The notes below the pieces were generated by a model. That model worked only from the letters and a program-made list of their open reading frames with translations. It searched no databases and had not been told where the DNA came from. This document shows positions 1,431 through 47,000 of a stretch of DNA of 64,000 bases, in pieces. The stretch lies in contig JAZGUH010000616.1 of the NCBI GenBank assembly GCA_037893225.1, forward strand, positions 1 through 64,000, written 5' to 3'. The translations under genes were made by a program, and so were the position numbers. The stretch is from Hippasteria phrygiana (Eukaryota > Echinodermata > Asteroidea > Valvatida > Goniasteridae). How positions within the stretch are numbered: the first letter of the stretch is position 1; each line of letters starts with the position of its first letter.

Positions 1431-1462
<32 letters not shown>

Positions 1463-21540: not shown

Positions 21541-21627
21541 AGTCCAAAATTTGGTGCTGGGGTTGGACTCGAACCCACGACCTCCTGTTTTCTATTGCAG
21601 CTGTCTTAACCACTCCACCATCGGGCT
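21541..21627 (-). repeat. tRNA-like SINE head
   Basis: On the minus strand an A-box TGGTGGAGTGG and a B-box GGTTCGAGTCC are spaced as in a tRNA gene. The acceptor arms do not pair, so it is a pseudo-tRNA or SINE head, not a functional tRNA. Confidence 0.55.
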
Positions 21628-24373
21628 TAGCGAAATCAGCTAGCTTATTCGAATTCTGTATTATAATTTATAAATTATGTATTTGTGTTTATCTCTCCAT
21701 CTGGGTCGAAACCGCTCCGCCCGTTTTGAAGATGGAATAGTGTGATGGTGTGAATGGAATTATGTATCTGGGCATAATTTCTGTATCCTGGCTTTGAATA
21801 AGAGCGTTAGCACTACAGCATGCAAATGAACAAAATTTCATATTTTTTCTCTAGAAATAACAAAAGAAAATACAATTTTATGAAAAACACGTGTCCCCGA
21901 TTCCTTACGTATTTTTGTTAATTATCAGAGCCAACCATTTTGTGTACTTGGCTTACTAAAACCATACGAAAATCTGCACAAACATATATTCAAGGTCATT
22001 GAGTTCAGCGGATAAGATATTTATTTAGTCCCGGTTCCATTTGTATCGCACATCAGCCCCTGGTCGACCCGGAGTACGCGAGATTCACTTAACGTCCGCC
22101 GTAATTCAGCTCATGTCGCCAGTCAAGCAAGATGCACGTATAATACGCACGAACCACGGCCCACTCCGCGGCACAGGAATTTTCTACACGACCGCTCCAT
22201 GAGTGCCCCCCGCCAATCACGGCTGTTTATGCATGAGTTGGCCGGCTATTGTTTCGGCTAATGGACGGCATCTTTAATGGAAACACAGCATAATAATAGA
22301 TCGGTAAACTAAATTTGAACCGTGATTATTGGCAATTTTCCCTCCCTGGTTTATTCCATGTTTTTTTAAGGATGGCTGCAGTATATTGATGGGCTAAAAT
22401 GCGATTTTTTTCCCACCATAGGCCCCTATAAAGGAAATCATTTTGTCATGTTCTGCCATCTGCCTATTTTGGTGTTGTTGGTACTCCGTAACTCTGAATC
22501 TCTTATTTCTCAAAAAAGAATTCATCCCCTTTTTCAAATTGAAATAATTCTTTAGGTCTGCACAATTGAACATTATCGCCAATTTTAGTGAAAATACTCA
22601 CGCGTTTCCCTCCTTGTAAAAAACTGGTTTAAGAAGGAAGAATTATGCCTACTAATTTTAAATAAATTTCAGGAGTACAAAAATCGGCTTAACTAAAAGC
22701 TGAACCCCAGCTTTGAACCAGTTTCCAGAATAGGCTATATATGCCAATCGAATTTTAATAGGTTAGACTTTAGGCCTACTTAAAATGATGTACAGAAATG
22801 AATCTCGATTACCCTTTTTTTGTTCAAAAATTCTTCTGACGACATTTCTCAAAAAAGGACAATCACATTTACTTTATTGTATGATAGGCCTATAGCTCAG
22901 GTAAATGACGACAAACGAAGCTGATTAGTTTCTGATAGCTTGATGCATTTAATAACTGAGATGATACCAGTGCCAATCCTTCTAAGAAAACTTTCCGTCT
23001 GAAATGCTGTCATCTTCGAAAAAAATGTATTTGAAGATCTCGCAAAAAAATGCCGTGCAAGCGCTTATTTTGATCTCAACAATCGAAACAGCAGCGCATA
23101 ATGAACGTGCATGCACAAAATTAGTGTTCAAACTATACAGCTATATTAAATAGCTCTCTAGTTCAGAACGTTTTGCAGTATTTCCTCGCGACTCGCATGA
23201 GGTATTGAGCTCTAATTTGACAGGTTTGTTTAATATTTTATGTATAGGGGCCTACGTTGAATTACAGTTTTTCTTTCCAGTTACCGGACTTCAGCATTTC
23301 AGACTGAATTCAAGTTGAGATTTTTTTTTACATATTTTCTCCCTCGAATTGCGCCAAAATTTGGCAAGTGTAGAACGGTTGCTGTACGGGATACGTTTAA
23401 ATGTGCAGCATGACTATACGGCGGCGTGGAATACAGATCGGCATTGCCTGTATATGATGTAGGCACCGGTAAGCCATACACGAGCATAATCAGTCATGTT
23501 GTTCCATGGAGCTCTTCTCGAAAGTAAAGACTGAATCATTCTGCTGATCTTCTAAGATGCGATGAATATTTGCCTCAAAAAATATTAAATAGCCTAAAGG
23601 TGTATCCGAGTTCAACCCAAATTTTACTCGATTGGATATCGTTTGAAAATGTTATTTCTTTATCTATAGTCCCAAATAGTCTTTCTGTTTTATTTTCTCT
23701 TTAGTATATCTATTACGCTTAAATATCTTTGAGTACAACTGCCATGAAGAGAAATTAAATGGGACTAAATGAAAAATGAATGAACAAATTGGTGTTGTTG
23801 ATATGCTGTGAAGTACGTATGTCGAATAGCGATTTCAATTATACATTATTTGTTTTCATTTCTTCTGTGGTATCCGGTACCCGCAATTAAACCCTACATG
23901 ATTTGTTGGTACTTCCTTGCTACTGTGTGTGTTGATTTGGCGCAACAGCTTAATATATAGTTTTGATGTTTTATATACAAATGTTTTAAGAACCCATTAC
24001 TATCATTTGTAAACAACAGTAGTAAAACAAATTTGACGTATTGCTATTTGTGTGTTTGTGTAATAAATCATTCAATTCTTTCCCAAACTTGGCCGGCATC
24101 ATTTTGGTTTAAACAAACAAATATATAAATGGCAATTTCAACACTGGCTTGCAGTGAAAATTAATCTTCCGTTTTTGAGCTGTTTTTGTGGGCCCGCTAG
24201 TTTTGGGGAAACTATTTCAGTCTATTAACAGTATTGCAATTTTCATAAACAAAGACGCACCCCTGGGCGGTATGTATGCGATGTTGTAAAATGCAGGTGT
24301 AAATGGCGCCACCCAACGTCAATTGTAACACCGATAAAAGCTGGCAAAACATATTACTAACATCTTTTAAACA
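21628..24373. other. Non-coding stretch with a candidate regulatory block at 22.05-22.35 kb
   Basis: No exon is supported. The block is CpG-rich and unique-looking, and it contains a POU-like TTTATGCATGAG, a SOX-like CTATTGTTT and a CCAAT word within about 90 bases. The rest is AT-rich. Confidence 0.45.
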
Positions 24374-24447
24374 TTTTCAAAGTGAACAATCTACAAGGGA
24401 AACTGACTAAGTAAATTTGAATACATGTTCAAAGTGAACAAAGAAAC

Positions 24448-24520
24448 TGGCAGGAGCGGGATTCGAACCTGCGACCTCCGGGTTACCGTACCGGCGCTCT
24501 ACCAACTGAGCTATCTTGCC
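24448..24520 (-). tRNA. tRNA-like element (Thr-GGU-like by position), probably pseudo
   Basis: 73 bases with intact A-box (TAGCTCAGTTGG) and B-box (GGTTCGAATCC), 6 of 7 acceptor pairs, an intact D stem and 4 of 5 pairs in the anticodon and T stems. Position 33 is C rather than U. It is part of a dispersed retroposon, so most likely a promoter relic. Confidence 0.35.
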
Positions 24521-24760
24521 CTATGTTGGCGGTTTCCCAAATTGTCAGTATCTTTGTTCGGGTGGGCGCTAGTCAGAAGTCATAAACCCAGAATGCCGTA
24601 TAGCCAGGGATCACACCCAATTTTACGATACAACCTGGGAAGCGACCTTGTGGGGATCACTCAATTAGGATACGACTTTTTAACTTATAATTCGTCAAAC
24701 AATCCACAAGGGAAACTGACTAGGTAAATTTGAATACATTTTCAAAGTGAACAAAGAAAC

Positions 24761-24833
24761 TGGCAGGAGCGGGATTCGAACCTGCGACCTCCGGGTTACC
24801 GTACCGGCGCAATACCAAATGAGCTATCTTGCC
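24761..24833 (-). tRNA. tRNA-like element in the second tandem unit, pseudo
   Basis: Same sequence as the neighbouring unit, with substitutions in the D-arm (CATTTGG in place of CAGTTGG) that spoil the A-box. The B-box is intact. Confidence 0.25.
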
Positions 24834-25059
24834 CTATGTTGGCGGTCTCCCAAATTGTCAGTATCTTTGTTCGGGTGGGCGCTAGTCAGAAGGCATAAAC
24901 CCAGAATGCCGTATAGCCAGGGATCACACCAAAATTTACGATACAACCTGGGAAGCGACATTGTAGGGATCACTCAATGAGGATACGACTTTTAAACATG
25001 CCAGCCAATCCTTATTACGCCACATTCTATAATAACAAGGGGGTACCCGGGTTAGGCCT

Positions 25060-26364
25060 AAGGTAAATCAGTTTTTAAAAAAGTTGGACAATTCATGCTC
25101 CAATGCGTAATCCATGATCTGTACATTCAACGCGCATTTTAGAATTGACTGCACACGGGGCAGCTTTAAAGTTTTATCTTTAACGATTGTTTTTGTAAGG
25201 CCGTGGTATTTGCTGTTGGAGTATCGCCTCGTGACGCATGTCACCACACAACAGTAACGACCCAACAAATGGCAAACAAATTGAGCAGTCCGTGACAATG
25301 TAGGCCAAGGCTCCAATTTTATTTTTAAGACTCGAGAAAGCAGAGACGTCTGGCGCCTGCCACACCGCGGCCATCGCATGCCGACCGTGTTCGGCGGGCC
25401 AGCTCGCGCCGAGTTCAAGACCAAATACACAGCCGGGACCCGGCCCCGTCGACGCGCTAACGCCGGGTTTGTTACGTGGTTACGCCATCGTACTACACGC
25501 TACCCAGTCATGTCACGCCGTGAACCCAGCGCGAATTATGTAATACACACGGGGCGAATCGCAGCGGCGGGGCCGGTTTACGCCGCGGGTTCCTCGGTCC
25601 TCGTAATTGGCGATCTTGATATCGCAGCGGGCCGCTGACGCCAGCCGAAGTAAGCTTGTAGAGGGGAATTGCCGTGCTTAAACGAGTCTTTCACGAGACA
25701 AGGGGAGAAAAAAAACAGATGACCCGTTCAAGGGCACAGGCGAAATTCCACACGGTACACGTCTCTTCAGAATTTCATGGGAAAAGCTTATGCAAATCAG
25801 TAGGAATCATGCGCACCCAATCGCCAATCACAGTGCGGCGAGGACGGGATTATATACACGTTCAGGGGCCAACCGTGCGCAGAAGACATGCTCGGAGGTC
25901 ATGCCAGCGCCAACTGTCTGTACGTGTCATGTCAATCAACCGTCCCTTTATCTGTCAGTCATATTAAGTAGGCCGGCCAGGCCCCGCCTTGTGTCACAAG
26001 CGGCAGTGTTCAACATTGTAGCGAATTTCCTGTTTTGATTGACGGGCATAGGACACTGCTTCTATCTCTCATCACGACCAAGGCAATCTTAGGCTATTAC
26101 CCGAGGCAAAGTATAGACTCAAATAGGGCTCATCAGACGAGTCACTAAAATAAAACCGAGGTTTCTGATTAATAGCCAACTTGACGATAACAAGTTGTGT
26201 TTTTTACACTTATCACAAAGAGAACAGGCGAACCGTGGGCGTACTAAAACAGTACACAAATTGATTAGTATGCCATTTTTTTCAAGCTTTAATAATGTTT
26301 GGAAATAGCTGTAAAAGAACACATTATCAAAATGAATTATCAAAAAGTCTGAGGTAACAAATTA
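25060..26364. other. CpG-rich unique block, no gene seen
   Basis: Bases 25345-25660 are strongly CpG-rich, and 25760-25990 is moderately so with CCAAT-type and GGATTA words. The open frames on both strands are composition artefacts. This could be a promoter or enhancer of a gene outside the window. Confidence 0.45.
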
Positions 26365-26371
26365 GGTCGAC

Positions 26372-27016
26372 CTGAACGTGTGCATTGCTGATAAGGTTAT
26401 CGAAAAAGTGAAATCTTGTAAATGCTTGGGTGTAGTTGTTGATGAAACATTAAGTTGGGGTACACATGTTGAATACGTAAGGAAGACTGTTTCGTCTAAA
26501 TTGGGTGTGTTAAACAGAATTCGTGATTACGTTCCCCAAAGCAGCCTGCACACACTCTTTGTAAGTTTAGTTATGCCATCTTTAGAGTATTGCTGTACGG
26601 TGTGGGGAGGAAGGTACATATCTCACGACAATACCCTCAACAAATGTCTGAAAAGAGCCGCACGGATAATCCTTAAATGTACCTCCCTCACCCCCTCAGC
26701 TGATATGTTTGCCAGACTAAATTGGATTCCTTTTAAGGAAAGAGTTCAGTCCAAAAAGGCTATCTTTGTTTTCAAAAGCCTTAACAAAATGACTCCTTTG
26801 TACATGACAAATCTGTTCACACCACTTACAGTGATTCGTGAAACACGACAATCGACCCAAATGGCACTGAATGTTCCTTTCGCCAAAAAGGAATGCTACG
26901 TGACAAGTTTCGCTGTGAGTGGTGCCAGTATATGGAATAATCTGCCTGAACAAATGAGAACCATAAACTCCTTAAGTACATTTAAATCGGAGCTACGTAA
27001 AGCCATCTATCAGTGA
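26372..27016 (+). pseudogene. C-terminal reverse-transcriptase fragment of a non-LTR retrotransposon
   Basis: An open frame of about 212 codons contains KCLGVVVDETLSW, PSLEYCCTVWGG and SIWNNLPEQMR, the thumb and C-terminal landmarks of Jockey/CR1-type reverse transcriptases. The catalytic YADD and the endonuclease are missing, so the copy is dead by 5-prime truncation. It ends in TGA shortly before the 3-prime UTR. Confidence 0.85.
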
Positions 27017-27174
27017 TATTTCTGTCATTTACGCTGATCTGCGGAGTTATAAACTCCCAGGTTGTATCGTAAAATTGGGTGTGATCCCTGGCTACACGGC
27101 ATTCTGGGTTTATGACTTCTGACTAGCGCCCACTTGAACAAAGATACTGCCAATTTGGGAGACCGCCAACATAG

Positions 27175-27247
27175 GGCAAGATAGCTCAGTTGGTAGAGCG
27201 CCGGTACGGTAACCCGGAGGTCGCAGGTTCGAATCCCGCTCGTGCCA
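27175..27247 (+). tRNA. tRNA-like element (Thr-GGU-like by position), probably pseudo
   Basis: Intact A-box and B-box, 6 of 7 acceptor pairs (GGCAAGA with TCGTGCC), discriminator A and loop ACGGTAA. First unit of a retroposon dimer. Confidence 0.35.
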
Positions 27248-27487
27248 GTTTCTTTGTTCACTTTGAAAATGTATTCAAATTTACCTAGTCAGTTTCCCTT
27301 GTGGATTGTGTGACGAATTATAAGTTAAAAAGTCGTATCCTCATTGAGTGATCTCCACAATGTCGCTTCCCAGGTTGTATCGTAAAATTGGGTGTGATCC
27401 CTGGCTACACGGCATTCTGGGTTTATGACTTCTGACTAGCGCCCACTTGAACAAAGATACTGCCAATTTGGGAGACCGCCAACATAG

Positions 27488-27560
27488 GGCAAGATAGCTC
27501 AGTTGGTAGAGCGCCGGTACGGTAACCCGGAGGTCGCAGGTTCGAATCCCGCTCGTGCCA
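27488..27560 (+). tRNA. tRNA-like element, second unit of the dimer, probably pseudo
   Basis: Identical in the tRNA-like segment to the copy 313 bases upstream. It is followed by only about 23 bases before the end of the retroposon. Confidence 0.35.
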
Positions 27561-27888
27561 GTTTCTTTGTTCACTTTGAAAATGAGTTATAAACTTGGTT
27601 GCCAAAATACTTTGGAGCCGGATGGGAATTTCCCCTTGTTTTTCACCCTAAAAGTTTTTTTTTCGCGGGTTTTTCGCCCATCGCGTAAATCAGCAATAGG
27701 CTTCTGGAGAGTTGAAAAGTTAACCGAAAATATATTTATTTGTGTAAACATTACTGTATTTGTTTAAATATTTTGTATGAATGTGTAAATATTCAGTTTT
27801 AACTAATAATATGCAGGGCCCCAATGGAAACCAGTTTTAAACTGTTTGGGCACACCCTGGGTAAAGAAATGTAATAAATAAATAAATA

Positions 27889-30438
27889 AGGTTCATGTCG
27901 CGTAGGAATACCGTTGTTTCTATCCTTTTCACAGAGCAATGGGTTTCCCTTTGGCCCGTTGGTGGCGCTATCACGATTCATCGATGGTTGTAATCGACAA
28001 AAGAAGGCCCATTATCAGGCAAACATTGGAAAAGAGGGTCGGTCGGTCGGTCGGTCGGAATAAAGTTTTTTTTTCCCCTAGTTCAAACACATTATGGTGT
28101 CGAGCAGTACGCTTCCACCACTACATGCTCAAGTGCCCATCTAATAATACTATTGGAAACGATGTTGAAAATAAACGAGGTTAAGTAAACGAGGTTAAGC
28201 CATGCCGTCATGTGACCGATTCGAAGAAGCAGCAAGTTGGTTGCTTTTCTCTCTTGGTTGTTGTAAACATATACGACAAAGTTCTTGCCGATTCGATTTG
28301 ACTCTTTCGCTACAATACGTATATTTAATTAATACATGTCTAAAAGAGATTTAATTGGTTGTATGCATTATCATTTTCACATGCGCTGTCCTTGTTTTGC
28401 TAGACTTCCCAAGACCCAAAGTTTAGGGTTTTCAGTCCGTATGGAACTTTGACGAGCGTGACGGATCGAAGTTATCTTCACGCTCACCCGGCCAGCGTGT
28501 TTAGGCCTAAGCGTTTGACGAACCCCCTGGTTTCATTTTTGTACATGAAAATACGCATAAAGTACCGGTAAAGAACGTACATCAAATACACACACTATTT
28601 GAGACAGAGAGGCTGAGAGATGTTTTTATTGATTTTCTTTTCAAAAAAGAAAAAAACGACCGTGAATCTGTCAATTTTTACGGTCGGTCGGTCAGCGGGC
28701 AACACAATTGTTTTTGCTTTGGAGGCGCCCAATCGGGCTACAAACAGCGTTCGTCCTAAAATTGATATCATTTGGGAAGATCATTAAAAAGAAGAATATA
28801 ATAATGCAAGTCCGTGGGGGGGGGGGGGGGGGGTGTGTTCGAATGAACCCCCCACTCGGTGAAGAGTTCCGCCCAGAAATAAATATATATTTACAAAATT
28901 AATTCCAAAAAAAAATCTCCCCCACAAAATCCACACGACCCCCAAAAATTATTCAGAAAGATATCTCTCCTTTGAGTACAAATATCACTGAATCTTCTAC
29001 TTTCCTGTATAAAGCTATTGCCGATTCAGGCATACGGGATGGGCGACAAAATCCGCGAAAAGACAATTTTGGGGGAAAAACCAAGGGGAAATTCTCATCT
29101 GGATCCAATTTACAACCGACACAGTATGACAGAGGCTCACGTGGCGAGATGTAGTTTGCAATTTAATTATTTTTTCACTGTGGCCCTTCTACGCATCGGC
29201 GCGGTATACCGTTAATTTAACAGGAATTTTTTAGATCAAAATTCAAAACTTCCCCGTTAAGCGCGCACAACAATACTAGTCACGTCGAAGGCATTGCACG
29301 GACGGTTTTTCCTGCCGTTGGTGGCGCTGTGACACATTTACGATACCTTTTGCATGTTGCGTGACTGGGTGAATTCGAAGCACAGAATGTGCCTTCGGCC
29401 CAGGAAGGGGGGGGTGGGGGAGGGAGGTGACGTCTTACATAATGTCCTCATCAACATTCCTAAGCTGTTTGAAGTGCTCCAAGTTCTAAGTTACAGAGCC
29501 CATTTCGACTAGGCACATTGCAATCTGTAATCAAATAAAAATAGGGTCGGATCCGGGGTGTGCAGAAGGCCAACCCCCCCCCCCCCCCCCCCCCCCCGTG
29601 CCATGTCTCCGTGTACAGATGTAATCACGAAAATCAGAAACCCTGTGTGGGTATTGTTTTGCGTATTTGGGTTAGAACAATACCAGGTTAAATGGCATCA
29701 CCGATCTCGAGAAAGAGTACCTGACACCCCCCCCCCCCCCTGTAAAGTTTTGTATGCAGGCAAACATTTGGGGAGTCAACTTTTGTGGACAAATGTACAC
29801 TAAAAGTCCACCCTCTCCCTCAGGTAATAGAGTACCGCAGTCTGACGTCAGTTGGCATGACAACTGGTTCCAAACAAATGTAAATTTCGACTGTTCCTTT
29901 GTTAACAGCCAGTCATGCAAACACATAACAAAAGTATTCTGGTTCCAAACATTGCATTGACGTCATCACTTCGGTGCTCTATAGACGTTGGCGGCCGGCT
30001 CCACAGAACGGATGACAGTCAGACAACTCCCCCCTCCCCGCCCCTCCCACCCCCTCCCACCCCCGCCCCTCCCACCCCCGCCCCTCCCCCCCCCCATGAA
30101 CAAAACATCCTGGACCCACCCATAAAAAAAAAGAATATATACAAAAAAGAAAACCTTTCCAAAGTCTTTTACTTTACCATGAAAAAAAATCTTTCAGTTT
30201 TTCTGCATACAACATATACAAAAAAATCAAAAAAGTATTTACAGATATGAAACCTAGTAAATCAAAATAAAACATATGTCCCTTTAAATTCTGACCACAT
30301 TCGCAAATATCTAACAAATATTCCAGTATTATATTAATCTTGAAAGACATCAGTATAATATATAATTAAGTGCTTATGAATACAAACCCTTATAATGTGC
30401 TATGCAAATAATATAACATACCTTATGCACTTGAACAT
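27889..30438. other. Non-coding stretch with long G and C runs
   Basis: Contains GGTC microsatellites near 28038-28057 and 28680-28693, G18 at 28816-28833, C24 at 29574-29597, C14 at 29727-29740, and a C-rich purine-poor block at 30028-30095. No exon is supported. Confidence 0.6.
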
Positions 30439-30614
30439 AATTGATCTATCGCCGTTTAAGAGTTAACCACACCCCTTAGACAACCCTATGGGAATTTTGT
30501 GTGGTATTTTTGGTTTGTCTCAGATTTTGCGCGTTCCACGTGGAAATATAATTGATGTGATTAGACAATAATTCACAAGCTGCCTTGACGCGATTCGACG
30601 GCGATAGGTCAATT
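30439..30614 (-). mobile_element. Small TIR element (MITE), family 1 copy 2
   Basis: The reverse complement matches 4648-4825 nearly throughout (for example CGCGCAAAATCTGAGACAAAC-type core and AGGGTTGTCTAAGG). The ends AATTGATCTATCGCCGT and GGCGATAGGTCAATT are inverted repeats. Confidence 0.78.
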
Positions 30615-31145
30615 ATTTACAAACAAAAATATTCCAGATGTAGTCATTTTTTAATGCATTTCAAACAATTATTTGATGTTAACAGCACAACGGCCCAACT
30701 TTTAAATACAGATTACTGATGTGCCACTTAATATGGTATATGTATTATAGTTAATGAATTCAATATTGTTTATTCATTGTGGTATCCCAGATATTCTTTC
30801 AAGCATAAATCATTCAAGCAGAAACAAAAACCCAGCCAAACATTTCTCAAAACTGACTGAAAAGAAAAAGGTTGCAAAAGTTTGTGCAAAAATTTGTTCA
30901 TTGACATCTGCCTTTTCAAACAGTATAAAAATAAAACTTATAACTGCTAAAATAGCAAAGTTATGTCTAGTTTCTGATCTGGAAGGCTCGTTTCACACGG
31001 AAGACGAGACTTGTCCAAACATCATTTACTAGACAAGATTTGGTTTCCTGGCACAATTACACAGAGGAGGGGAAGGTCCCCCCCCCCCTCCCCCTCACAA
31101 CAGAGGTCTGTGGCTCCGTGGGACCGAACCCCCCACTGGAGATTG

Positions 31146-31570
31146 CTGTTGTGTGTAACAGAGTTGTAGTCGAGTCTGGATCCATGTCCGGATCCGAGTC
31201 TGATGCCAAAACAGTAAAGAAGTGGACTAGAAGTCCACTGGAAGTTCAAAATGCAACAAACAAGCTCAACTCTGGACTTGACTAGAGCCCTACCTTGAAC
31301 ATAGACTTGATGCTGGATTCCATAATACTTTTTTACTATTAAAATGGTCTTAGAATCAGGCCTGGACTTGGCGAGTCCGGACTGGGTCAAAAAGTCCAGA
31401 TGTGGATCTTATAGACATTGCAAAAATGTATGCTGGAGTCCAGAGTCAAGTCTTGCATTGGAGCCAGGACTCAATTCAAGTTTTTTTCCAGTTTGATTCA
31501 AGTGGGCTTTAATTTGGCATTATATTTTTTGCAATATTGCCTTGGACTTGCATCTGGACAGTTAAGCCAT
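31146..31570. repeat. Degenerate repeat of AGTCCA/TGGACT words
   Basis: A region with many variants of GAGTCCA, TCTGGACT and GACTTG in both orientations at irregular spacing, giving self-complementary potential. It looks like a decayed satellite. No coding signal. Confidence 0.55.
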
Positions 31571-31904
31571 ATTGTACTGTCTCACTGAAGTGCCCCCTAG
31601 CAAAATCAGTGCACCCAAAAAAGATTCCTGTGCAAATTGGACCCTAGTGACACCACTGTCCGGCCACTAGTCCAACTGTAATTAACCACAGTTTTTGAGA
31701 GAACATGCTGTCATTATAACTACTACATCTCTCAAGTAACACCAGGTACAATTGTACCACAAATGCCCAACATCCAGACAAGTACACAAATACCTTTCAG
31801 TCTGTACTCCTATCATTCCCAAATCCTTGAATAGTTCTTATGAAATATCAATCTACAGGTATTTCATTCTATTCAGTATTTTTGGGGGGAGTTCAGTCAT
31901 AAAC

Positions 31905-32072
31905 CCTTTGGTTTATGACCTCTGACTAGCACCCCCCTGAAAAAGATACTGACAATTTGGGAGAACTCCAACATAGGGCAAGATAGCTCAGTTGGTAGAG
32001 CGCGGGTACGGTATTCCGGAGGTTGCAGGTTCAAATCCCGCTCCTGCCAGTTTTCTTTGTTCACTGTGAACA
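31905..32072 (+). mobile_element. tRNA-like retroposon, short 5-prime-truncated copy
   Basis: It begins in the body near GGTTTATGACC, contains a tRNA-like unit at 31977-32049, and ends CTTTGTTCACTGTGAACATT, close to the shared 3-prime terminus. Confidence 0.75.
31977..32049 (+). tRNA. tRNA-like element, pseudo
   Basis: Diverged copy with GGTTCAAATCC as B-box, a weaker anticodon stem and the same loop position for GGU. Part of a retroposon. Confidence 0.25.
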
Positions 32073-32269
32073 TTTTAAATAAAACAAATTATACTTCAGT
32101 GTACTGCGTGGTATTCTCTACAAAGTTAACCATAATACAAAGCAAGTTAAACAGCCGATTCCATATACAATGTAATTCTTGTGTAGAACATTTCAATTTT
32201 ATAAGTACTTCTTTAAAACATCTGTGTATAAAAAATAACATTAACAAAGTTCTTGCATCTGATGTAATT

Positions 32270-32640
32270 TATTATTATTATTTTTTAATGCAAGTTCACT
32301 CTGAACAAGGCTAAAAGCCACTTAAGGAAAAAGAATCAAAGATACAAGAGGTAGGAATTAATATTCCTCTTGAAGCAGGAAAGATCGTAAGATGAAGGGA
32401 AACATGCACCAGGCAAAGAATTCCACAGAGATACAGAACGAGGGGAACAGCTATTGACATAGCTTTTCGTTCTACATCTAGGTACAGCTAGTCTAGAGTA
32501 TATTGGTGGGAACAGGCGGAAAGCCAAATTTCATGCTCAAACACCCTTATTGAAGAAACTAGTACTTATATTACTATTTCTTCCTAAAGTCCCAAGGCAG
32601 TTTCTGGAAATTCGACCTGATAAAAAATTCCAAGTTTGAT
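32270..32640 (-). mobile_element. LINE 3-prime fragment (CR1/Jockey-like)
   Basis: On the minus strand a frame ending at 32336 contains RTKSYVNSCSPRSVSLWNSL and CFKRNINSYL, the C-terminal signature of CR1/Jockey-type reverse transcriptases. It is followed by a short UTR and an AATAAT-type tail near 32270-32285. Everything upstream is missing. Confidence 0.75.
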
Positions 32641-33270
32641 CATTAACTTTACTGCTCTCTTCTATACAGATTTGTACACTGATTCAACAGCATAATACAA
32701 AGGTGTCCTTGAGATAGTTAACACACAGCATACACAGTTATGCCCAAAATTATTCATACCCTATGAAAAATCTGGTAGTTTGCTTTTCTCTCATACATAA
32801 AAGCTGGATTGGCGGAACTTAGGCTTTACTTAATGACTTTTAGTTGCCATGTACAAATCTACATATATTTTGGTTTCACATCATTAGCATAAAAGTAGAA
32901 ATAATAAATAAAATGATTCACAATACCCTGAATTTGGCATGGGTATGAATAATTTGGGGCATAACTGTACACAGCATATTGCATTACTACAGAGCTACCA
33001 GCTCACTGTATCTAGTGAAGCATCCGTGTTTCTGCAAATACTTATGGCAAGCTCAAACATCCGTACATTAATTGCTCGTTCATTTCAATGACACCATCTG
33101 CAGTCCTTTTCATTCATCGAAGAACTCAAAATTGCTTATAAATACAAATTACGGTCACAAATGAGCATGATAGAGGCACCGCCTGAATGCACATTCATGA
33201 CCTAATTACCAGACGCCCTTTCAGGCGACTATTCTGGGCATTCACAGAAACATGTGAGAGATGGATGAAA

Positions 33271-33497
33271 CAGGGGTGAGATTGGCCAAAAATGAAAAAT
33301 CCAAGAAATCCACGAAAAATCCACGAGGACCCCAAATCGACAAAGTTTTTATTGGTATATATATCTACTTTTACAGGTAAAAACACCTTTAGGACAATAC
33401 CTCAGGAATTCCAGATTGCAAAAGAGATTTTTTAAAATTCTGAAATCCCGACAAAAAATCCTTAAATCAGGAAAAACCCTGACAAATCTCACCCCTG
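33271..33497 (+). mobile_element. Small TIR element (MITE), family 3
   Basis: It starts CAGGGGTGAGATT and ends AATCTCACCCCTG, inverted repeats. A related half copy lies at about 47531-47676 in the opposite orientation, sharing CAGGAATTCCAGATTGCAAA and GGTAAAAACACCTTTAGGAC on complementary strands. Confidence 0.75.
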
Positions 33498-34077
33498 ATA
33501 TTGCAAAACTGCCATGCGTAGCCATTTTCAGAAAAATCTAAACAAATAAACAATAATCTTGGCAATGCCTAAAACAGCTTTGAAGTATCAGTACAACGGA
33601 ATGAGCAATTAGCGCGTAAAGTAATTAAAAAAATTAATGCAGCTCTATGACACAACAGTAGTTTTGTTATTTAAAAAATACTCTTGTGAAAGTATCAATG
33701 AAGAACTCGTAAGTGGCAATCCACTTCACTTGTATCTGTTGTATTGTGAACAATGACAAATTGTAAACCCAATTTTTGTTCAATGCAGATGGTTTAGGCA
33801 ATGTTAAACCAATGCGTATTTTAACAACCTAGCTGGTGACAAGTGGCTCTGAATGCCGAACAAACAGCGCACATTTCAGTTGTGGAGGAAAATTGGTGAT
33901 ACAAATAATGAGTAACTTAGGAGGTACAATAATTCACAATTCACAGCTATAGACTTCGAAGCTATCGCATGTGCATTAATATGCTTAAGACATAATATAT
34001 TATGTGTGCACTGCATACTAATGGAGTGAAGACCATTCAACGAGCTCTTGCTTTTATTTAGAGACTTCTGGTATCCA

Positions 34078-35026
34078 CTATTCAAAAGCCTCGTCTTCCA
34101 AGTCCTCGTTGTCCGATTCCAGGAAAACCGGATTCTGCTTGGTGACATCATGAGGTGACTTGGACAGCGAGGGCTGGTGGGCTCGCTTCCGGTCCGACAC
34201 AATGTCCTCGTGGATACCGGTCTGCGCTGCCAATGTAGAGGACGTCCTCCTTTTCTTCACGTCCCCGCTTGGTCCTGGATGCGAGGACAGCTCAGCAGCT
34301 GAGACGGCAGGGACTGAGGACCCAGCATCCTGCTGGATCTCCATCACTGCCTGCTGGCTCAGGACCTTGTTGTCCGGGACGAAGATGGGGTTCTGGTAGG
34401 CCACGGCACCCACAGATAGCTTGCGAGAGACCGAGGGCCGTCGCCCCGCTGACTTCTTTCGTACCCTCTTGTCGCCCTGCTCGGGCACCCGCTCCTGGAC
34501 CAAGCCCAGCTGGGCCTGTTCCCAGTCATCCAGGTTGCTTCCCTTAGCCTGTAAGGTTCCCCGGTCGCCGATTGGTATGGTCATGGTCTCCATGAACTGC
34601 GCCACTGCCAGGTCACCTGGGGTCTCGGGCTTCTGTTTCTTCTCATTAAGGTCCACCTGCTGATCTTTGACTTCGTAGCCGGGAGGCAGGAGCCCAAGGG
34701 CACTGGCAAGGAACAGGTTGTCCGGTGGGGAGTAAGGAGGAGGCTTGTCCTCAGGTTCTTGATCGGTTTCCTTCACTTCCAGGGCTGAGGCAGCAGCAGT
34801 GGGTGTGGCTTCTGGGATGGGAGTGGTGGGGGTTGCTTCCGTCGGTGAGGGCTCTGGAGTAAACCTCTGCAGTGACAGTTCTGGCTCTTCGTCTAGTGAA
34901 TAATCCCCCTCAGGTAAATCCTGCGGCCGGCAATCTCTGGATGGTCGGCACCGTCTCGATGGTTGATCCAACTGCCAGAAGTCCTGATCCGGCGTTATCA
35001 TCACTTGCTCAGAATCACTGCGAAAC
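34078..35026 (-). CDS. Cadherin gene, terminal exon: cytoplasmic tail with PPxY and QNPxF motifs
   Basis: A 949-base exon including the TAG stop at 34080-34078. The split AG|G codon joins exon 20. The tail is proline-, glutamate- and serine-rich, with PPPY at 1945-1948, PPGY at 1964-1967, a basic serine-rich patch (KKSAGRRPSVSRK), QNPIF and QNPVF, and an acidic C-terminus ending EDEAFE. PPxY is the class I WW-domain ligand and NPxF resembles PTB ligands; partners are inferred. I cannot identify a classic catenin-binding region. An AATAAA 20 bases after the stop is too close to be the polyadenylation signal, so the 3-prime UTR end is undetermined. Confidence 0.93.
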
Positions 35027-38000
35027 CTAAAACAAACAACCAAAAAACACAATAAAAAAACAATAACCACAACCCCGACTACGTCCTTGAGCAAGCCATT
35101 TTGTCATGAATCGCTTTACTCCATCCAGACTCTCAAAAACCAGTACTGGACTTATTTTTTTACATTTTCAAAGTGAACAAAGAAACTGGCAGGAGCGGGA
35201 TTCGAACCTGCGACCTCCGGGTTACTGTACCGGCGCTTTACCAACTGAGCTATCTTGCCCTATGTTGGCGGTCTCCCAAATTGTCAGTATCTTTGTTTGG
35301 GTGGGCGCTAGTCAGAAGTCATAAACCCAGAATGCCGTATAGCCAGGGGTCACAACCAATTTTACGATACAACCTGGACAGCGACATTGTGGGGATCACT
35401 CAATGAGGATACAACTTTTTAACTTATAATTCGTCAAACAATCCACAAGGGAAACTGACTAGGTAAATTTGAATACAAAGTGAACAAAGAAACTGGACTT
35501 ATTTCTTTGTTAGGTTTTCCCGAGACGATGGGAAACATTCCAATGGTTTAATTTTATCAGTGTTTGTGCTTGGATTTTTTCCAAGTCCGTGGTTAAAGCA
35601 ACTGATATGGCAATAATGCATCTGCATCCAATCCTATGTACAGCTTTCCAGTCAGTTTCACCAACTCACACTGTTAGCACTGGGGAGTGAGTTTACTGGG
35701 CAGAGGTTAGCCAGTAAAAGTATGCACTGGACTTAAAACAGGAAATACCCATCGTCTCGGTGAGTTGTACTAAAAAAAAGTCCAATGCAAACTGGGCTTA
35801 AGGTAGTAGTATACAAATAATGAATGTTTATGAGTGCGATAGTAAGAATAATTTCATGAGGTGACAGATTGAATGTTCTATTCCATGAGGCAAAGCCGAG
35901 TGGAATGGGACATTTCATCTGTAACCGAATGAAATTATACTTACCATTGCACGAATGTTAAACATTCATTATTTGTTTTATACAACGCCTGAATAATTCC
36001 GACAGATTGCATGCATGGATTTCTTGGAGTACAACGTGCCGTTTACCTTCTCAGTCCCGCATAAAACCGCGACAAAAAGTGGTCCAGTTCCGAATCAGTT
36101 AAAGCTTTAATTGTTGTTCCTGCGTGTGTTGCAAATTCTTCCAATCGTTTGACTGCATATTTCATTTGTCTCTGTGTTAGCAGCGTCAGCATCGCCTACG
36201 AGTTCCAATATTTTGTCGTCTGTTAGGAAAACAAACCGCGGTTCGGAAACACCGTCTGCCATTTTGTGTGAATGACAGCCTAGACTGGTTCTCGGTCCCA
36301 ATATGTATATATTCGTGGGAAACGGACAACGGCCAAGTAGGGGATGGCTTAGTGGGGTGAAGTACGGTGGGGCCTGACCCCTTAACCGCTACGGTAGCCG
36401 TGAAGGTCCACTCCGAACCCTGAAATAGCTGGCTAACGAGGCTCTGGTGAAGGCACGGGGCAGCAGCCGTGACAATGCTGATGAAGCGGATGAGGTCATT
36501 ATCACAGCCCAACGGTCCATCAGGCACAACGTGGGAGGCGCTTCGATCCAGAAGTGGTCTCCCACTACTGCGCTCCACGTCTCCCCAGTCCCAAGGAGGC
36601 GGAGTATCAAGGGGCACCACCTACACAAACGATGAAAGTGCACCAAAGTAACACCAGGGTTAAAGTCCCTGCCTACCCCGGCCCCGTACAAGGAACCACA
36701 TCACAACACAATCCATCTCGTCGTGAATTAATGATGTCTGACACCTCAAGCTCCGTAGGGGACGGTGCCAGACTAATTGCGGGTTCCAAATCGGGACCAA
36801 AACTAAAACTAGACCTTAGATCCTGTCTCCGGGTTGCTACCTGGAATGTTCTCACACTCTCAAAAGTGGGATACCCGGAGGCTGTCTCTCGTGAACTGTC
36901 GCGCTACCAGATAAGCATCGCTGGCCTCACCGAAGCTCGCATTCCAGGAAGCGGAGAACGCCGTGTCGACCAGTACATGATGTATCATTCAGGTAGTTCA
37001 GGCCGCACGGAGGGAGTCGCCTTGCTCCTCAATTACAAGGTTAGCCTCAAACCGGATCCTTCAAGCACGGCTCCGTCACAGACATGGACACATTACCATC
37101 ATAGTGGTCTATGCACCGACTGAGTTAGCCTCTGCTGCAGACAAGGACGGCTTCTATAACCAACTGGAACCACTCATTCACTCTACTCCACCCCACGACC
37201 AACTTTTGGTCATTGGAGACCTGAATGCTGTCAGCGGGAAAGAGCGCACAGGCTATGAGAGTGTTGTTGGAAACTTCGGCTCCGGACGAACAAACGACAA
37301 CTCAGCACGCCTACTTAACATGTGTTCCCTTGCCAACCTGTCAATTGTTGGCTCTTTCTTCAGACGGAAGGGAATCCACCGCTGGACATGGTTATCCAAT
37401 GATGGCCATACCAGGAAGGAGATTGACCACATGCTGACTAGAGATCACTCACTCTTCTGCTCTTACCGAGTCTTCAGGGGTGCGGAGGCCCCAGCAAGCA
37501 CAGATCACCGCCTAGTTGCTGGGGCAGTCAAAATCCAGGCCTACCGCAAACCTCCGAAACCAAATACAAAGCAGCTTGACATCAGATCTCTCCTCGATAA
37601 CATCAGTGTTGCCTCCAATTACAACATCGCTGTCAGCAACAAATTTGAAGCTCTGGGTGTTCTCGAGGAAGACCCAGAGTTTGCTTGGTCCTCCATCCGA
37701 TCATCTATTTTATCTGCTGCTACAGAAACAATTAGCACCCGCAGGCATCAGAGACGCCCCTGGCTGACCGCTGAAACAATGGATATCCTCGACCAGAAGC
37801 GCAACGCACGTCTGCGTGGTGACACATGTGAAGCACGCAGACTAAAAGGCGTCTTCAAAGCTAAAGCCAAGGGCGACCTTGAGGAGTTCTATGGCAAACT
37901 CGCAGACGATGCTGAAGAAGGGCTACGCAGAAACAACCTGCGTCCATCCTTTCAGGCCATTAAGCGTATGCGTGGCCCCCCACAACAGGGACGTAGCATC

Positions 38001-41000
38001 TTGCCAATAACTAAGATCGACGGCACCTCATGTAAGACGGTTGAGGAGACGTTGGCCCGCTGGCGTGAGCATTACAATTCCATGCTCAACCATCCTCCAG
38101 CCATACCTTGCCCCGACCTCACCGCACAGGCAACAGCCGCAACCCCCGCTACAGATGTTTCCTCAGACGCTCCCACCCTGGTCGAGGTACGTTGCGCTAT
38201 CAGAAAACTCAAGAATGGACGTGCTGCAGGACCCGACGGTATTCCCCCTGAACTGCTCAAGTGTGCTGAGGCCCCAATCAGTGTGGCCCTCCACGATCTC
38301 TTCCTCAAAGTATGGTCCTCAGGCAGAGTCCCTGCTGAATGGAGGGACGGTATCATCATCTCCCTGTACAAAGGAAAGGGTCATCGGAATCAGTGCAGCA
38401 GCTACAGGCCCATCACTTTGCTGTCAGTTCCCGGAAAGGTTTTCAGCCACGTCCTGTTATCTCGCTTAGAACCACTACTCACCCGTCACCGTCGCCCCCA
38501 GCAGTCCGGCTTTACAAAGCGCCGATCAACAATGGATGCAGTGCTTGCTCTTCGACTTCTGTCGGAACTACACCGCGAGTTCGGGAGACCTCTTCACGTT
38601 GCATATGTAGACATCAAGGCAGCCTTTGACTCGGTAGATCGGAATGCTCTGTGGCAGGCCCTGAAAGCTATCGGAGTCCCACCATTCTTGCTTCACCTGA
38701 TTCAGGCCTTGCACGAGGGAAGCACCTCCACCGTGCGTGTCGGAGATGATGTCTCAACCCCCTTTGTCACCACTTCAGGTGTCCGTCAGGGTTGCATCCT
38801 CGCCCCAACTTTATTCTGCTGTGCCATCGACTGGATCCTCAGCCGCTGTCAGTCAGATTTTGGAATAACAGTTGGAGACAAGTCCTTCACAGATCTGGAC
38901 TATGCCGACGACGCCGCTCTGTTCTTAGGAAAACCCAGTCAGTGGCCTATTCCATTCCAGAGGTTTGAGGAAGAAGCCGGGACGATGGGGATGCACGTGT
39001 CATGGGCCAAAACCAAGATCCAGAATTGCACCGGTGTCGGTCCGCCACTTGCCTCAGCTACTGTTATGGGCCAGCTTGTCAAAATCACGGAGAAGTTTAG
39101 GTATCTCGGCTGCGACATCAACTCCTCGGGCTACTCATCGCCTGACATTCTCCGACGAATAGGCCTCGCTTCATCAACCTTCGGCCAACTGGATCGGGTG
39201 TGGCGGAACAAACGCCTCAACGTCTCAACCAAGATGAGGATATACACGACTTGTGTCCTATACACGACTTGTTTTACTATACGGGTCGGAGACGTGGACG
39301 CTCCTAACTGAGGATGGGCGAAGGCTACAAGCCTTCAACATGCGGTGCCAACGGCGCATCCTCGGTGTCCGGTGGTCTGACTTCGTCACCAATATTACTA
39401 TTATGGAGACCACTGGCCCTGAGGACATCTGTGCAACAATTTCAAGAAGGCGTCATTCCCTCTTTGGCCACATCCGACGGCTGCTGGATGACACGCCAGC
39501 CCACACCGCCCTTAAGCTGAGTGTTGACGTACGAGGGGGACTCCTCCCTGACACCTCCTGGAGGAGACCCAGGGGCCGACCACGCAACACCTGGGTGCGC
39601 CAGCTGGAAGTTGACCACAAAACACAAGCACAACAGCTTTGGCAGTCTGCATTCGATCGTTTGGTCTGGGCGGCTCTACATCCCCCATGATGGATAAGGA
39701 GAATGATGATGATGATGAAGTCCGAAGGACAATGGAGGGACCGGGAACCAGTCCAATGACAGCCGTGTTGTGGCGGCGGGGAAGTTCTATTAAACGTGTT
39801 ACCGTTTGATAGAACCATGTTTTTTTGGCAATGCGGGTTCTTGTTGTGCGATGGGAGGAACAATTCAATGCACGTGATCGACGATCCACCAATCGAATGG
39901 CTGGGATTTATTCAGGTGTTGTATAATGATCAATGTCACCTTGACCAGCTCAGCTCAGTGTGTTAAATTGCAGCTGGGACTGAATACTCCTAAGGGAGCT
40001 GATGTTTCAGGAGTGATTTATGGGCCTGATGATCAGGGGTAATAAGGCCTAATGAAGCATCTTCAATGTCAAGACTGGTGGATATATGTACGCACACTTT
40101 ACCATGATTATAAAAACAGAACAGTCAACAGAACTGAGCTAATTTTACAAAACCTAACGCAAGTGCTAAAAATAAAAAAAATTAGCTGGCCTGACGTTTC
40201 GAACTTAAGCAAGTTCTTTCTCAAAGGCAAATGACAGAGTACAAGAAACAAACATGTAGGGAACACACATGCATGATGGGGTGGGTGGAGAAACACAAAA
40301 GAGGGATGCAAAGGAGCATGGCAGTGGGTAAACATCAAAGGGAGAGGAAAGGACAGCCAGGAAGACAGGAACAAAAGAAGTGTGGTTTGGGTAAGGATGA
40401 AGGAGGGGATGGATTAAGATGAATGTAGTTTGGGGGGGGGGGTTGAATTGAAGGTGGTAATAGGGCAAGAGAAGGAACAAAGAGAAGTGGCAAGGATACT
40501 AAAACTTAACTTATGTCACATTTTAGTTCACAAGTTTAGTTCACATTTATGAACACTTTTCAAATTTACTTCACAAAAGGAACGCAGTGCAAAAGTCGCC
40601 GACTTGTGCAACAAATTACAGTGTTACTTATGCAGTCATTTCAGGGGGTATAAGTTTGTCTGAACAAACTGTAAAGGCATGACTTAACTAGCTCAACTTT
40701 TGCATTGTAGAGCTTTCTGCCGTTCAAGTTATTTATTATATTCTGTAGATTATTTCTAAGAGGAATGAAATGAGCATCCGGTGCAGGTTATATGTACGGG
40801 AATGTACTAAAAGATGGCAAGGAAAAAGGGTACCAGTGACAATAGTTAAAGTAGCTGTCGTTCACACTTGGATACCAATGCACAGGTGTAACGTACGTTA
40901 CAAATCAACCACTGGTTAACCCAAGTTCCTTAAATTTGTCATGGCATAAGTTCCGCAGTGTCTCAAGAAATCGGCTGCAGGAGACACGACGGGTCAGCAT

Positions 41001-44000: not shown

Positions 44001-47000
44001 TATATCTCGCAAAAGTTGAGCTGTCAATCACTTTATAATGTTTCAGGGCTAGGGGTGCAGGATATTTTATTTCAGACATACTTTTCTTTCAGGGCGAATG
44101 AATACTGATATTGTAATGAGTACTGATTTGTTTAAACATACATGTAGCTTGTCGGAACAGGTGAGCATTAATATTCCAAGCAAAGGATACAATAATCCAT
44201 CCTTCCGTTTAATTCAGCCACGGGAGGGTAAACATTATTCTCCTTGCTCGATGGATTTATTTAATCAGCTATGTGTCCCCTTTGTGTTATATTTGTTCTG
44301 CTTGCTCTAATTTTTCTGGTGATTTTCACGGCAAGGTTGCGTTCAGCCCGCCCACTCGACTATCGATGGGTACCACCAGCGAATTGTGTAGATACCAACA
44401 GTCAATCCGCGTGAACCAGCTGATTTATTTAGAGCTTATCAGCACTAGGAGGCACGAACCACGTGCGAGCAGCCCCAAGTGCAGAGAAGCATTTCTCAAT
44501 GAATGGTTGAAATGGATACGCACATAATTTGCATAGATTTAAATATGGCCCAGTCTACACAAAATCACATTTTGCGAAGTTTTTAGGTTAACTTTATGAA
44601 AATTACACTGGGGGTAACACAAAGGGTAACACCAGTGGTTAAGTTTTGAAAACAACTTCTTTGCAATACAATCGGCATAATTTGGTCTAATTGCGGTGAA
44701 AATTTGCATTTTTTTTCGGATCGCTTGTTCAATGTCATTTGGGGATTTTCTTAAAACATCCCCCGCAGTACGAATCACCGAGCCACCAAATGGTCAATTA
44801 TCTTATTTACACTATAAATGAATGTGATTTTTTTCACACAGGTTCTCGGAAGGCACTGAGTATACTTCATATATTACGTCAGGACAGGGCAAAAAGAGAA
44901 AACATCTGTATTAAGTTACATCATCCCCCGACACAAACATTCCATCTTCTGACTATAAATAAAAAGTTCGAAAGGATGATGTCACTTCGACTTGAACCTC
45001 GCTTACAAGGAAATCAATTTTAGCGAATTTGCTGGTAAAAAGAAAGTATCACCGATTTTTTAAGGGAAAATAGGGGTTCCGAAAAAAAATCGCCAATTTT
45101 GAAAACGATATTAGCGATATCTCAATTTTTTTATTTAAAAAAACATGTAGCCGATTTCGATTTTTGGGCAGCGAATATCGCATCATCGCGATGTTATCGT
45201 CGTATCGCCCAGCACTAGTTGAAACACACACAAGCTGTGAGATTTGGTGGTTAGATTTTATAGGCTGTGATACTTATAACTATAGGAGGGTTAATAAATG
45301 AAGCCATTGATTTATTGACCAATGTATTGAACGGTTTTAGATTTTCCAATGAACAAATAAATAAATCAAGTAATCAATTAATAGAGTGACATCTTAGACA
45401 TAATAAAGTACACCAGGACAAACTGAAACTCATTATAAAAATTTAGACTTTAGAATTTTCCTCATTTTTAGAGAACATTTTTAGGCAGTGTGGGGGATCA
45501 CTCAATGAGGATACATTTTTATCACATAGCATCGTCAAACAAAAAAAGAGAAACCGACTAGGTAATTTAATCAATTTTTTAAGTGAACAAAGACATTTTG
45601 AGAATTTGTTTTGTTAGGCAAAAAAATATAATGTGGTTATCATCAACCTTAAGAGGAGGTTCCTTTGTCTTTTTCTTTCCAAAATGGCCACCACGCTTAG
45701 TGTCCAAGATGACCATTGAACTTTTTCAAACCAAAATGGCTAACAACATTCCTGGGCTAGCCATATATTTCCTTTTCCCCTTTCTATATACTTTCCTCTT
45801 TAAAGTATTTCTGTTACAAAACAGTACAACAAAAACCAATGTAGGCAGTCTTTTGATAAAAAAAGTAGTTTCAGATGCTGAACATGTTATTTTTAATGGT
45901 CTTTCACAAAAATCTACATTTTTTCAAAAAAATTCAAAACAATTAAGTAATCCTAAGTTTAAGTTTGTTCTGGACACTAAACATGTTTGTCTTCAACTGG
46001 CCATGTAAAAAAATAATTTTCTTCACTGTAAATATTTGAAAATAATGCAAATTAATACTCATTTTAGGCTTACCTTCGTAGGGACTCCTACAGTCGCAAG
46101 TGTACAGCCCGATACGGTCAACGCACATGGCACCATTTTGACACTGATGGTCAGCGCATTCGTCTGTGTTTCCGTCACACAAAGGCCCCTCAAATCCCCG
46201 CTTACACTCACAGGTGTAGCTGTCACGGTTCACGTTGTTTGTGCACTTCACTGTGCCTGGAATACAAGATCACACAAAACAAAGATGATGTGATGCCAGT
46301 TGGAAACGTTAGTCGAGTTGGCCTGTGCAGTTCTGTAGGAAGGTTGGGTGGGAAGGGGCCGTGATATACAGTGTTCGTACAAGCACTGCCTTATGGGGTA
46401 AAATGCACAAAGGGTAACAATGGGACCCTGTAAGGCAGTCTTTAGAAATCTAGGGACCCTGTAAGGAAAACGCTGTGGAGTTTGAGATTTCAATAAGAAC
46501 AAAGGAGAACAATAGTAGACTATACATGGTACAGTGTTTGTGGACAAACACAGGGCTGTTTTGTTTTTTGATTAAAATGAAATTTCAAAAATTTGTAAAA
46601 ATATAAAAAAAATTGCCGATGATGTCATCATGACATCATTTCAGATTTTGCATGCTAGTGACAGTATCCACCTACCCACCAATTTTCATGACGATTGGAC
46701 CTATCCTTATATGTGTTTTAAAAAAGCACATTTTTGATGATGTCATCATGACGTCACACATTTTCTCCCTTTTAGGGGATATCTTTGAGACATACCAAAG
46801 CTATAACAAAAAGAATTTTGAAAATATCTTGTTTTGTTCGCTAGATATATTGAAAAAAAATGTACGATTTTAAAATTTCAAAAATTCATAAAAAATCACG
46901 TGATGACGTCATCATGACCTCATTTCAGATTTTGCATGCTAGTGACAGTATCTACCTACCCACCACTTTTCATGACGATCGAACCTATCCTTATATGTGT

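Follow-up and report, generated by a model that had tools for sequence, protein, structure and literature searches.

A total of six copies of one repeat family were identified in the window, the whole 64-kb stretch of DNA analysed, and all are built on a common unit of 313 bp. Within this unit a body of 216 bp is followed by a tRNA-Thr-like sequence of 73 bp with A and B boxes, and then by a tail, designated R, with the sequence GTTTCTTTGTTCACTTTGAAAATG. The short tail after the tRNA, put at about 23 bases in a preliminary description of this DNA, is 24 nt long. All five copies named in that description (at 24.4, 27.1, 31.9, 35.2, and 54.8 kb) were recovered, and a sixth that was absent from it was detected near 45.5 kb by nhmmer (E 6.8e-08). 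Two copies contain more than one unit: c24 (24372–24988, minus strand) consists of a 5'-truncated unit, a full second unit, and roughly 40 bp from a third body, fused to R, and c27 (27056–27584, plus strand) is a dimer of a 5'-truncated first unit and a full second unit, with an internal R at 27248–27271 and a terminal R at 27561–27584. The others are monomeric or truncated. Copy c31 (31910–32074, plus strand) carries a 5'-truncated body, a tRNA at 31977–32049, and R at 32050–32074, while c35 (35163–35491, minus strand) is a monomer of the order R-body-tRNA-R, with the tRNA at 35187–35259 and the 3' R at 35163–35186. Two copies are old, namely c45 (about 45476–45593, minus strand), in which R and body are followed by a jump to an R-like AAAATG, and c54 (54825–55114, plus strand), which includes R, the body, the tRNA up to its T-loop, and then R-like sequence. 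These two have five differences from the consensus in common, and since both still have R-like sequence ahead of the body, the unit layout is old. All counts given here refer to these six copies (n=6) in one 64-kb window.

Within the family, ARAGORN made five tRNA-Thr calls, the Rfam tRNA model matched six units with scores of 41.6–57.8 bits, and pattern matching found A and B boxes in all six complete tRNA units. The two tRNA-Thr-like units of c27 (27175–27247 and 27488–27560, plus strand) and the second unit of c24 (24448–24520, minus strand) were recognized by ARAGORN, Rfam, and box patterns, and the first unit of c24 (24761–24833, minus strand), which has one change in the A box, by Rfam and box patterns. 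The predicted pol III promoter is in the tRNA-like part, near the 3' end of the element, and the promoter-bearing unit proposed earlier for this position is thereby borne out. Neither the tRNA nor R is better conserved than the body: the young copies show substitutions at 6/288 positions in the tRNA, 1/96 in R, and 19/807 in the body, and the old copies at 15/130, 7/33, and 41/371, respectively. As a warning for annotators of tRNAs, every unit scores as a tRNA-Thr gene. TTTT does not occur within the 313-bp sense strand, but with a chance expectation of 0.19 its lack was rejected as proof of read-through; TTTCTTT inside R resembles a weak terminator.

The common 3' end claimed in the preliminary description is firm in four of the six copies, c24, c27, c31, and c35, whose 3' ends fall no more than about 2 nt from the end of R; the R-like 3' ends of the degraded c54 and c45 are weak by themselves (P=0.03 and P=0.21, respectively). 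For target-site duplications (TSDs), P values were estimated from 20,000 random pairs of 24-mers, each of the six tests being taken singly. Copy c27 is flanked by an exact 12-bp duplication (27044–27055 on the left and 27584–27595 on the right; P 0.00015), of which the first G on the right is in common with R. At c35 the duplication is exact over 13 bp and extends to 17 if one mismatch is allowed (35145–35157 at the 3' end and 35492–35504 at the 5' end; P 0.0001). Both clear duplications reported before (12 and 17 bases) thus stand, and an additional one of 11 bp, also exact, was found at c24 (24364–24374 at the 3' end of the element, overlapping the ATG of R, and 24989–24999 at the 5' end; P 0.00045). 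A probable gapped duplication of 11 versus 13 nt flanks c45 (45463–45475 and 45594–45604; P=0.004), and comparison of the flanks of c31 and c54 detected none (P=0.34 and 0.76, respectively). TSDs of the non-LTR type are therefore clear at three copies, probable at one, and lacking at two. The target of c35 was the end of another repeat, a relative of which at 48094–48179 (74%, 87 bp) contains the duplicated 13-mer once and without insert, the similarity extending on one flank only. We classify the family as a dispersed, target-primed retroposon: the three clear TSDs of 11–17 bp together with the probable fourth, the fixed 3' end, and the differing 5' ends support the target-primed reverse transcription that had been proposed.

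The 5' ends of the six copies are located at unit positions 85, 122, 173, 0, 3, and 15, the last three, belonging to c35, c45, and c54, respectively, being inside R. None of the copies starts at the 5' end of the tRNA (chance 0.16 under random 5' ends). A 5' end within 3 nt of the 3' end of the tRNA was found in two of six (P=0.007) and a 5' end within R in three of six (P=0.0076), both values being post hoc with n=6. Two, perhaps three, of the six copies begin in R, just past the expected end of an upstream tRNA, and such starts are consistent with RNase Z having cut off the upstream tRNA or with reverse transcriptase having stopped there. The 5' junction of c35 lies within a 5-nt microhomology to the target (CCAGT), and because of this its position may reflect CCAGT rather than RNase Z.

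Two tRNA units each, with a period of 313 bp, were found in c24 and c27. The dimer reported at c27 was upheld, and c24, where part of a third body (about 40 bp) follows, proved to be multi-unit as well. The two units of c27 are identical at 216 of 216 shared bases and have five substitutions from the consensus in common, four of which occur in no other copy, indicating that they came from one source. The units of c24 (241/252 identical, no shared changes) are neutral with respect to strand transfer or a homogeneous source. In c24 the third body jumps to R at a TTGTT microhomology; RNA splicing at this jump was rejected by eye, GT-AG ends being absent. That c24 retains R at its 3' end, even though the third body and tRNA were skipped, suggests that synthesis begins at R. 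Long tandem arrays were not found in the window, the maximum being two units plus a fragment; a tandem-repeat listing of the window included the array at 24.4 kb only, and c27 was not listed as an array.

Since copying has to preserve an internal pol III promoter, SINEs usually carry theirs at the 5' end. If the promoter is at the 3' end instead, templates must be made by some other route, an obvious one being multi-unit loci, and the 3'-placed promoter and the doubled copies together hint that the RNA template for reverse transcription is made in an unusual way. We consider it probable, at about 60%, that the family is a non-autonomous tRNA-type retroposon with a permuted unit, copied by priming at R from templates supplied by multi-unit loci. 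The unit would consist of the body, then the tRNA-like pol III promoter, and then R as a short 3' signal, recognized during target-site-primed reverse transcription by a putative non-LTR (or Penelope-like) helper. A LINE tail resembling R was not found in the window, where matches outside the family were at chance level only. Loci of two or more units would supply the useful templates, with pol III reading from the upstream tRNA through R, the body, and the tRNA that follows. Loss of the upstream tRNA could then occur by an RNase Z cut after its last base, or by a stop of reverse transcriptase at this tRNA, and would yield R-body-tRNA-R copies such as c35. The tRNA-like 73-mer folds no better than its shuffled versions (z 0.60; of 200 such sequences, 141 fold equally well) and a hairpin in R was rejected (minimum free energy 0), both of which count against a strong fold guiding RNase Z or halting an enzyme. 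Multi-unit copies may arise from longer transcripts or by strand transfer between the R's of two RNAs. As 120–160 bp precede the first tRNA in the two-unit copies, the pol III model has to invoke either a template switch or a source that is longer still.

The preliminary description had already proposed multimers made by pol III, and of this proposal the retroposon and the multi-unit copies hold; the transcript, however, should start at the 5' end of a tRNA, where none of the six copies starts, although this is a hint only. Its statement that the 3' promoter makes sense only if tandem arrays are transcribed was too strong, since pol II read-through, circular RNA, and a longer parent element could also account for it. 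A stricter version of the preferred reading is possible but doubtful: two-unit loci would be the only sources, with pol III starting at the first tRNA, RNase Z cutting that tRNA off to free an R-body-tRNA-R template, and R-to-R transfer remaking the dimer as reverse transcriptase crosses, retrovirus-like, from the R at the 5' end of one RNA to that at the 3' end of another. A dimer rebuilt in this way would have one shared R, and the tRNA would serve as both promoter and processing site, the latter being the role of ribozymes in retrozymes and R2. Should such a cycle operate throughout the genome, the boundaries of a mobile element would be set by the tRNA-processing machinery of its host, and tandem copies of SINEs would be source genes rather than the accidents they are often taken for.

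We regard as unlikely an ordinary tRNA SINE of head, body, and tail that turned tandem, the copies being array fragments of accidental phase that retroposition or recombination relocated. There is precedent for SINE dimers, multimers, and satellites derived from SINEs, the Dip SINE of jerboa reaching up to eight tandem units in the published accounts, and c24 and c27, being tandem, resemble such head-to-tail multimers (PMC10702118; PMC8466645). With the tRNA-derived SINEs (SINE2, including Dip) the family also shares a tRNA-like pol III promoter, short length, dispersed distribution, TSDs, and no evident coding. In contrast to SINE2, its tRNA part adjoins the 3' end with 24 nt remaining, and R is followed by neither poly(A) nor a simple-repeat tail. 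Moreover, none of the six copies begins at the tRNA or stops before it and four end at one base after it, the longest array in the window is two units plus a fragment, and TSDs are present at three or four of the six copies.

Quite improbable is a retrozyme-like element, in which the unit RNA circularizes, rolling reverse transcription makes dimers, and the tRNA part substitutes for the hammerhead ribozyme. Metazoan retrozymes are described as tandem units of about 150–450 bp that range from dimers to multimers, lack LTR, PBS, and PPT, and have TSDs of more than 4 bp (PMC7229834). The 313-bp period, the tandem state, the non-LTR-type TSDs, and the lack of LTR features of the present family are similar, and the identical units of c27 agree with rolling synthesis. 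A hammerhead or other ribozyme was nevertheless rejected: Rfam gave no ribozyme match in 27040–27600 with E up to 5, the CTGANGA core is missing from both strands of the unit, and a tRNA-like promoter is found instead. In addition, a circle would not explain why 5' ends fall in R.

An equally low probability is assigned to a longer non-LTR element, transcribed by pol II and with tandem tRNA-like 313-bp repeats in its 3' UTR, of which the copies would be the 3' portions left after 5' truncation. In truncated LINE copies, too, the 3' end is fixed, the 5' ends vary, and TSDs and microhomology on the 5' side are seen, but none of the six copies extends upstream of the unit into other sequence, and two or three of them start in R. 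Since six copies in 64 kb are few, such a parent may be located elsewhere. Identity with Helenus, a miniature LTR retrotransposon (TRIM) whose direct repeats with tRNA-like sequence, often Thr and of this type in bivalves, flank a short internal part (311–1263 bp in length, with tandem arrays in zebrafish; PMC10886601), so that c27 would be read as LTR (216)-internal (97)-LTR (216), is very improbable and was rejected on TSD length and 5' ends: animal Helenus is reported in the same source with 4-bp TSDs and has fixed LTR ends, against TSDs of 11–17 bp, variable 5' boundaries, and several single-unit copies here, which leave no two fixed-end LTRs, and by eye, for c27 only, the first 'LTR' is followed by TATTCAAATTT and not by the TGG usual for a primer-binding site, with no polypurine tract ahead of the second.

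Tandem repeats with tRNA-like sequence are also known from Xenopus, Rana, and newt (PMC10702118; PMC8466645). These amphibian repeats, OAX/satellite I (Xenopus), PolIII/TAN (Cynops), and Rana/polIII, with repeat lengths of about 250–360 bp for PolIII/TAN and Rana, are described as tandem families (PMC10702118), whereas the family here forms short dispersed insertions with TSDs. R2 and the R2/R1 SIDEs provide an analogy only: cutting of a longer cotranscript produces the 5' end of their RNA, whose 3' end is recognized for target-primed synthesis (PMC3414825), but R2 RNA is cut by a ribozyme, RNase Z being the proposed cutter in the present family, for which site specificity was not seen.

A description of the family was not found in searches of an open-access library, nor did pieces of R searched as text match there. 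In other marine animals, tRNA-like repeats are followed by a similar TTTCTTTGTTCA motif. Patterns of the tRNA-R junction, some of them shaped by this motif, gave no matches among viral contigs and prokaryotic and viral genome contigs, a result that says little given those collections. From a phage collection 51 records were obtained, none covering 80% of the query, and the 20 listed records are matches to the tRNA part. Besides the repeat family, the window encodes a LINE reverse transcriptase and a cadherin-type exon; cadherin domains were recognized in two of six window proteins tested, with the coding interrupted, as fits animal DNA.

A 313-bp unit, consisting of a body (216 bp), a tRNA-Thr-like part (73 bp) and a tail, R (24 bp), is present six times in the window, and the copies, named here by their kb position, are firmly identified as a retroposon: c24 (24372-24988, minus strand), c27 (27056-27584, plus), c31 (31910-32074, plus), c35 (35163-35491, minus), c45 (about 45476-45593, minus) and c54 (54825-55114, plus). 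The same six, at 24.4, 27.1, 31.9, 35.2, 45.5 and 54.8 kb, were detected by blastn with 27051-27590 as the query and by nhmmer with a one-unit query (c45 at E 6.8e-08), which gave four more matches beyond these at E 0.065 to 7.2; the sample is six copies in one window. Five tRNA units of the family were identified as tRNA-Thr by ARAGORN, six matched the Rfam tRNA model, and A- and B-box patterns were present in all six complete units, with one A-box change in the first unit of c24. The old copies c45 and c54 have five differences from the consensus in common, and three in the tRNA part are common to c31 and c54; the same layout was therefore carried by two or more generations of the family. 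Cadherin domains in two of six tested window proteins, together with a reverse transcriptase in a third, indicate that the window is animal DNA.

The family copies are insertions. Exact flanking duplications were found at c24 (11 bp; P 0.00045 against random 24-mer pairs), c27 (12 bp; P 0.00015) and c35 (13 bp, or 17 with one mismatch; P 0.0001), while the values were 0.004 with gaps for c45, 0.34 for c31 and 0.76 for c54. These single P values need caution because local repeats give a fat tail to the control based on exact matches in neighbouring flanking sequence (0.00275 for lengths of at least 11 bp). c35 is located inside the end of another repeat, of which a relative at 48094-48179 (74% over 87 bp, one flank only) contains the 13-mer once and runs on without an insert; for the other copies, comparison of joined flanks gave no empty-site relative spanning the site. 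The target repeat (35492-35800 and 48094-48179), with inverted ends (ACTGGACTTATTT ... CCGAGACGATGG), is MITE-like by eye and is broken near its end by c35.

The terminal sequence is CACTTTGAAAATG in c24, c27 and c35, and CACTGTGAACATT in c31. In c24, two tRNA units and 40 bp of a third body are joined via TTGTT to the final 13 nt of R, after which comes the target-site duplication. A similar jump leads out of the T-loop into GTTCAGTATGAA in c54 (P 0.03), and out of the middle of the body into AAAATG in c45 (P 0.21). Only the c24 jump is secure. Should the other two also be genuine, each event would have retained the same 10-18 nt of R, a pattern predicted by a start of synthesis at R combined with frequent early template switching. 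The 5' ends, counted from the first base of R, are at 0 (c35), 3 (c45), 15 (c54), 85 (c24), 122 (c27) and 173 (c31). Two of the six are within 3 nt of the tRNA end (P 0.007) and three are inside R (P 0.0076), both windows being picked after seeing the data; none is at the tRNA start or within the 10 bases before it (P 0.16). The 5' junction is ambiguous across CCAGT, common to c35 and its target, and across AAAAG in c24.

The two units of c27 are identical at all 216 shared positions and have five substitutions in common, four of them absent from all other copies; both therefore derive from a single source sequence, which may have been a circle, a homogeneous array or one locus transcribed twice. 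Within c24, the two units match at 241 of 252 positions, and none of the eleven differences (seven in unit 1, four in unit 2) is shared, which is what changes acquired after insertion, or a mixed source, would produce.

As a hypothesis, the following transcription cycle is proposed. Because the promoter of a genomic monomer is only 24 nt from the element end, its own pol III transcript would lack the body and comprise the tRNA, R and flanking sequence as far as the first TTTT. This TTTT follows the last tRNA by 47-98 nt in c24, c27 and c35, and immediately in c31. A two-unit locus would instead yield tRNA-R-body-tRNA-R, and removal of the first tRNA would leave exactly c35. It is established that RNase Z cleaves pre-tRNAs 3' of the discriminator base, and we infer that the upstream tRNA would be cut off in this way; alternatively, reverse transcriptase would halt at that tRNA. 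Against both the cut and the halt, the fold of the tRNA-like 73-mer is no better than that of shuffled sequences (z 0.60), and copying passed through tRNA units in copies such as c24 and c27. Since R contains TTTCTTT, and the available text of PMC8466645 names TCTTT as a common terminator for pol III in mouse B2, termination in R may compete with read-through.

The family is not Helenus, a miniature LTR retrotransposon with tRNA-like LTRs, as described in the available portion of PMC10886601. The family shares the promoter and target-site duplications with SINEs, but not their 5' tRNA head. Metazoan retrozymes, as far as the accessible parts of PMC7229834 and PMC7761336 describe them, resemble it in tandem units, length and target-site duplications; they have a hammerhead ribozyme, however, and none was found in the family. 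Nearest in kind, from the accessible parts of PMC10702118 and PMC9659126, are tandem tRNA-like repeats of amphibians.

Other repeats were observed in the window. At 1350-1461 (plus), a tRNA-like stretch with B-box GGTTCAAATCC has (TTAT)8 no more than about 20 nt behind it, and resembles the relic of a tRNA SINE that lacks a body and carries a simple-repeat tail. A further tRNA-like relic at 21556-21645 (minus; GATGGTGGAGTGGTTAAGAC ... GGGTTCGAGTCC), of leucine/serine type by eye, is under the Rfam gathering score. A 284-bp unit unrelated to the family forms 2.1 head-to-tail repeats at 46618-47203. The non-LTR retrotransposon at 36700-39690 (plus), which we take to be RTE-like, has a reverse transcriptase domain (PF00078), broken frames and a short (GAT)n run at its end; its tail showed no resemblance to R. 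A C-terminal LINE fragment was recognized by eye at 26366-27890 (plus), with no match in a Pfam search of the fragment, and c27 is located between its reading frame and an (AAAT)n tail. The stretch 3' of c27 is 79% like 29015-29108 on the opposite strand.
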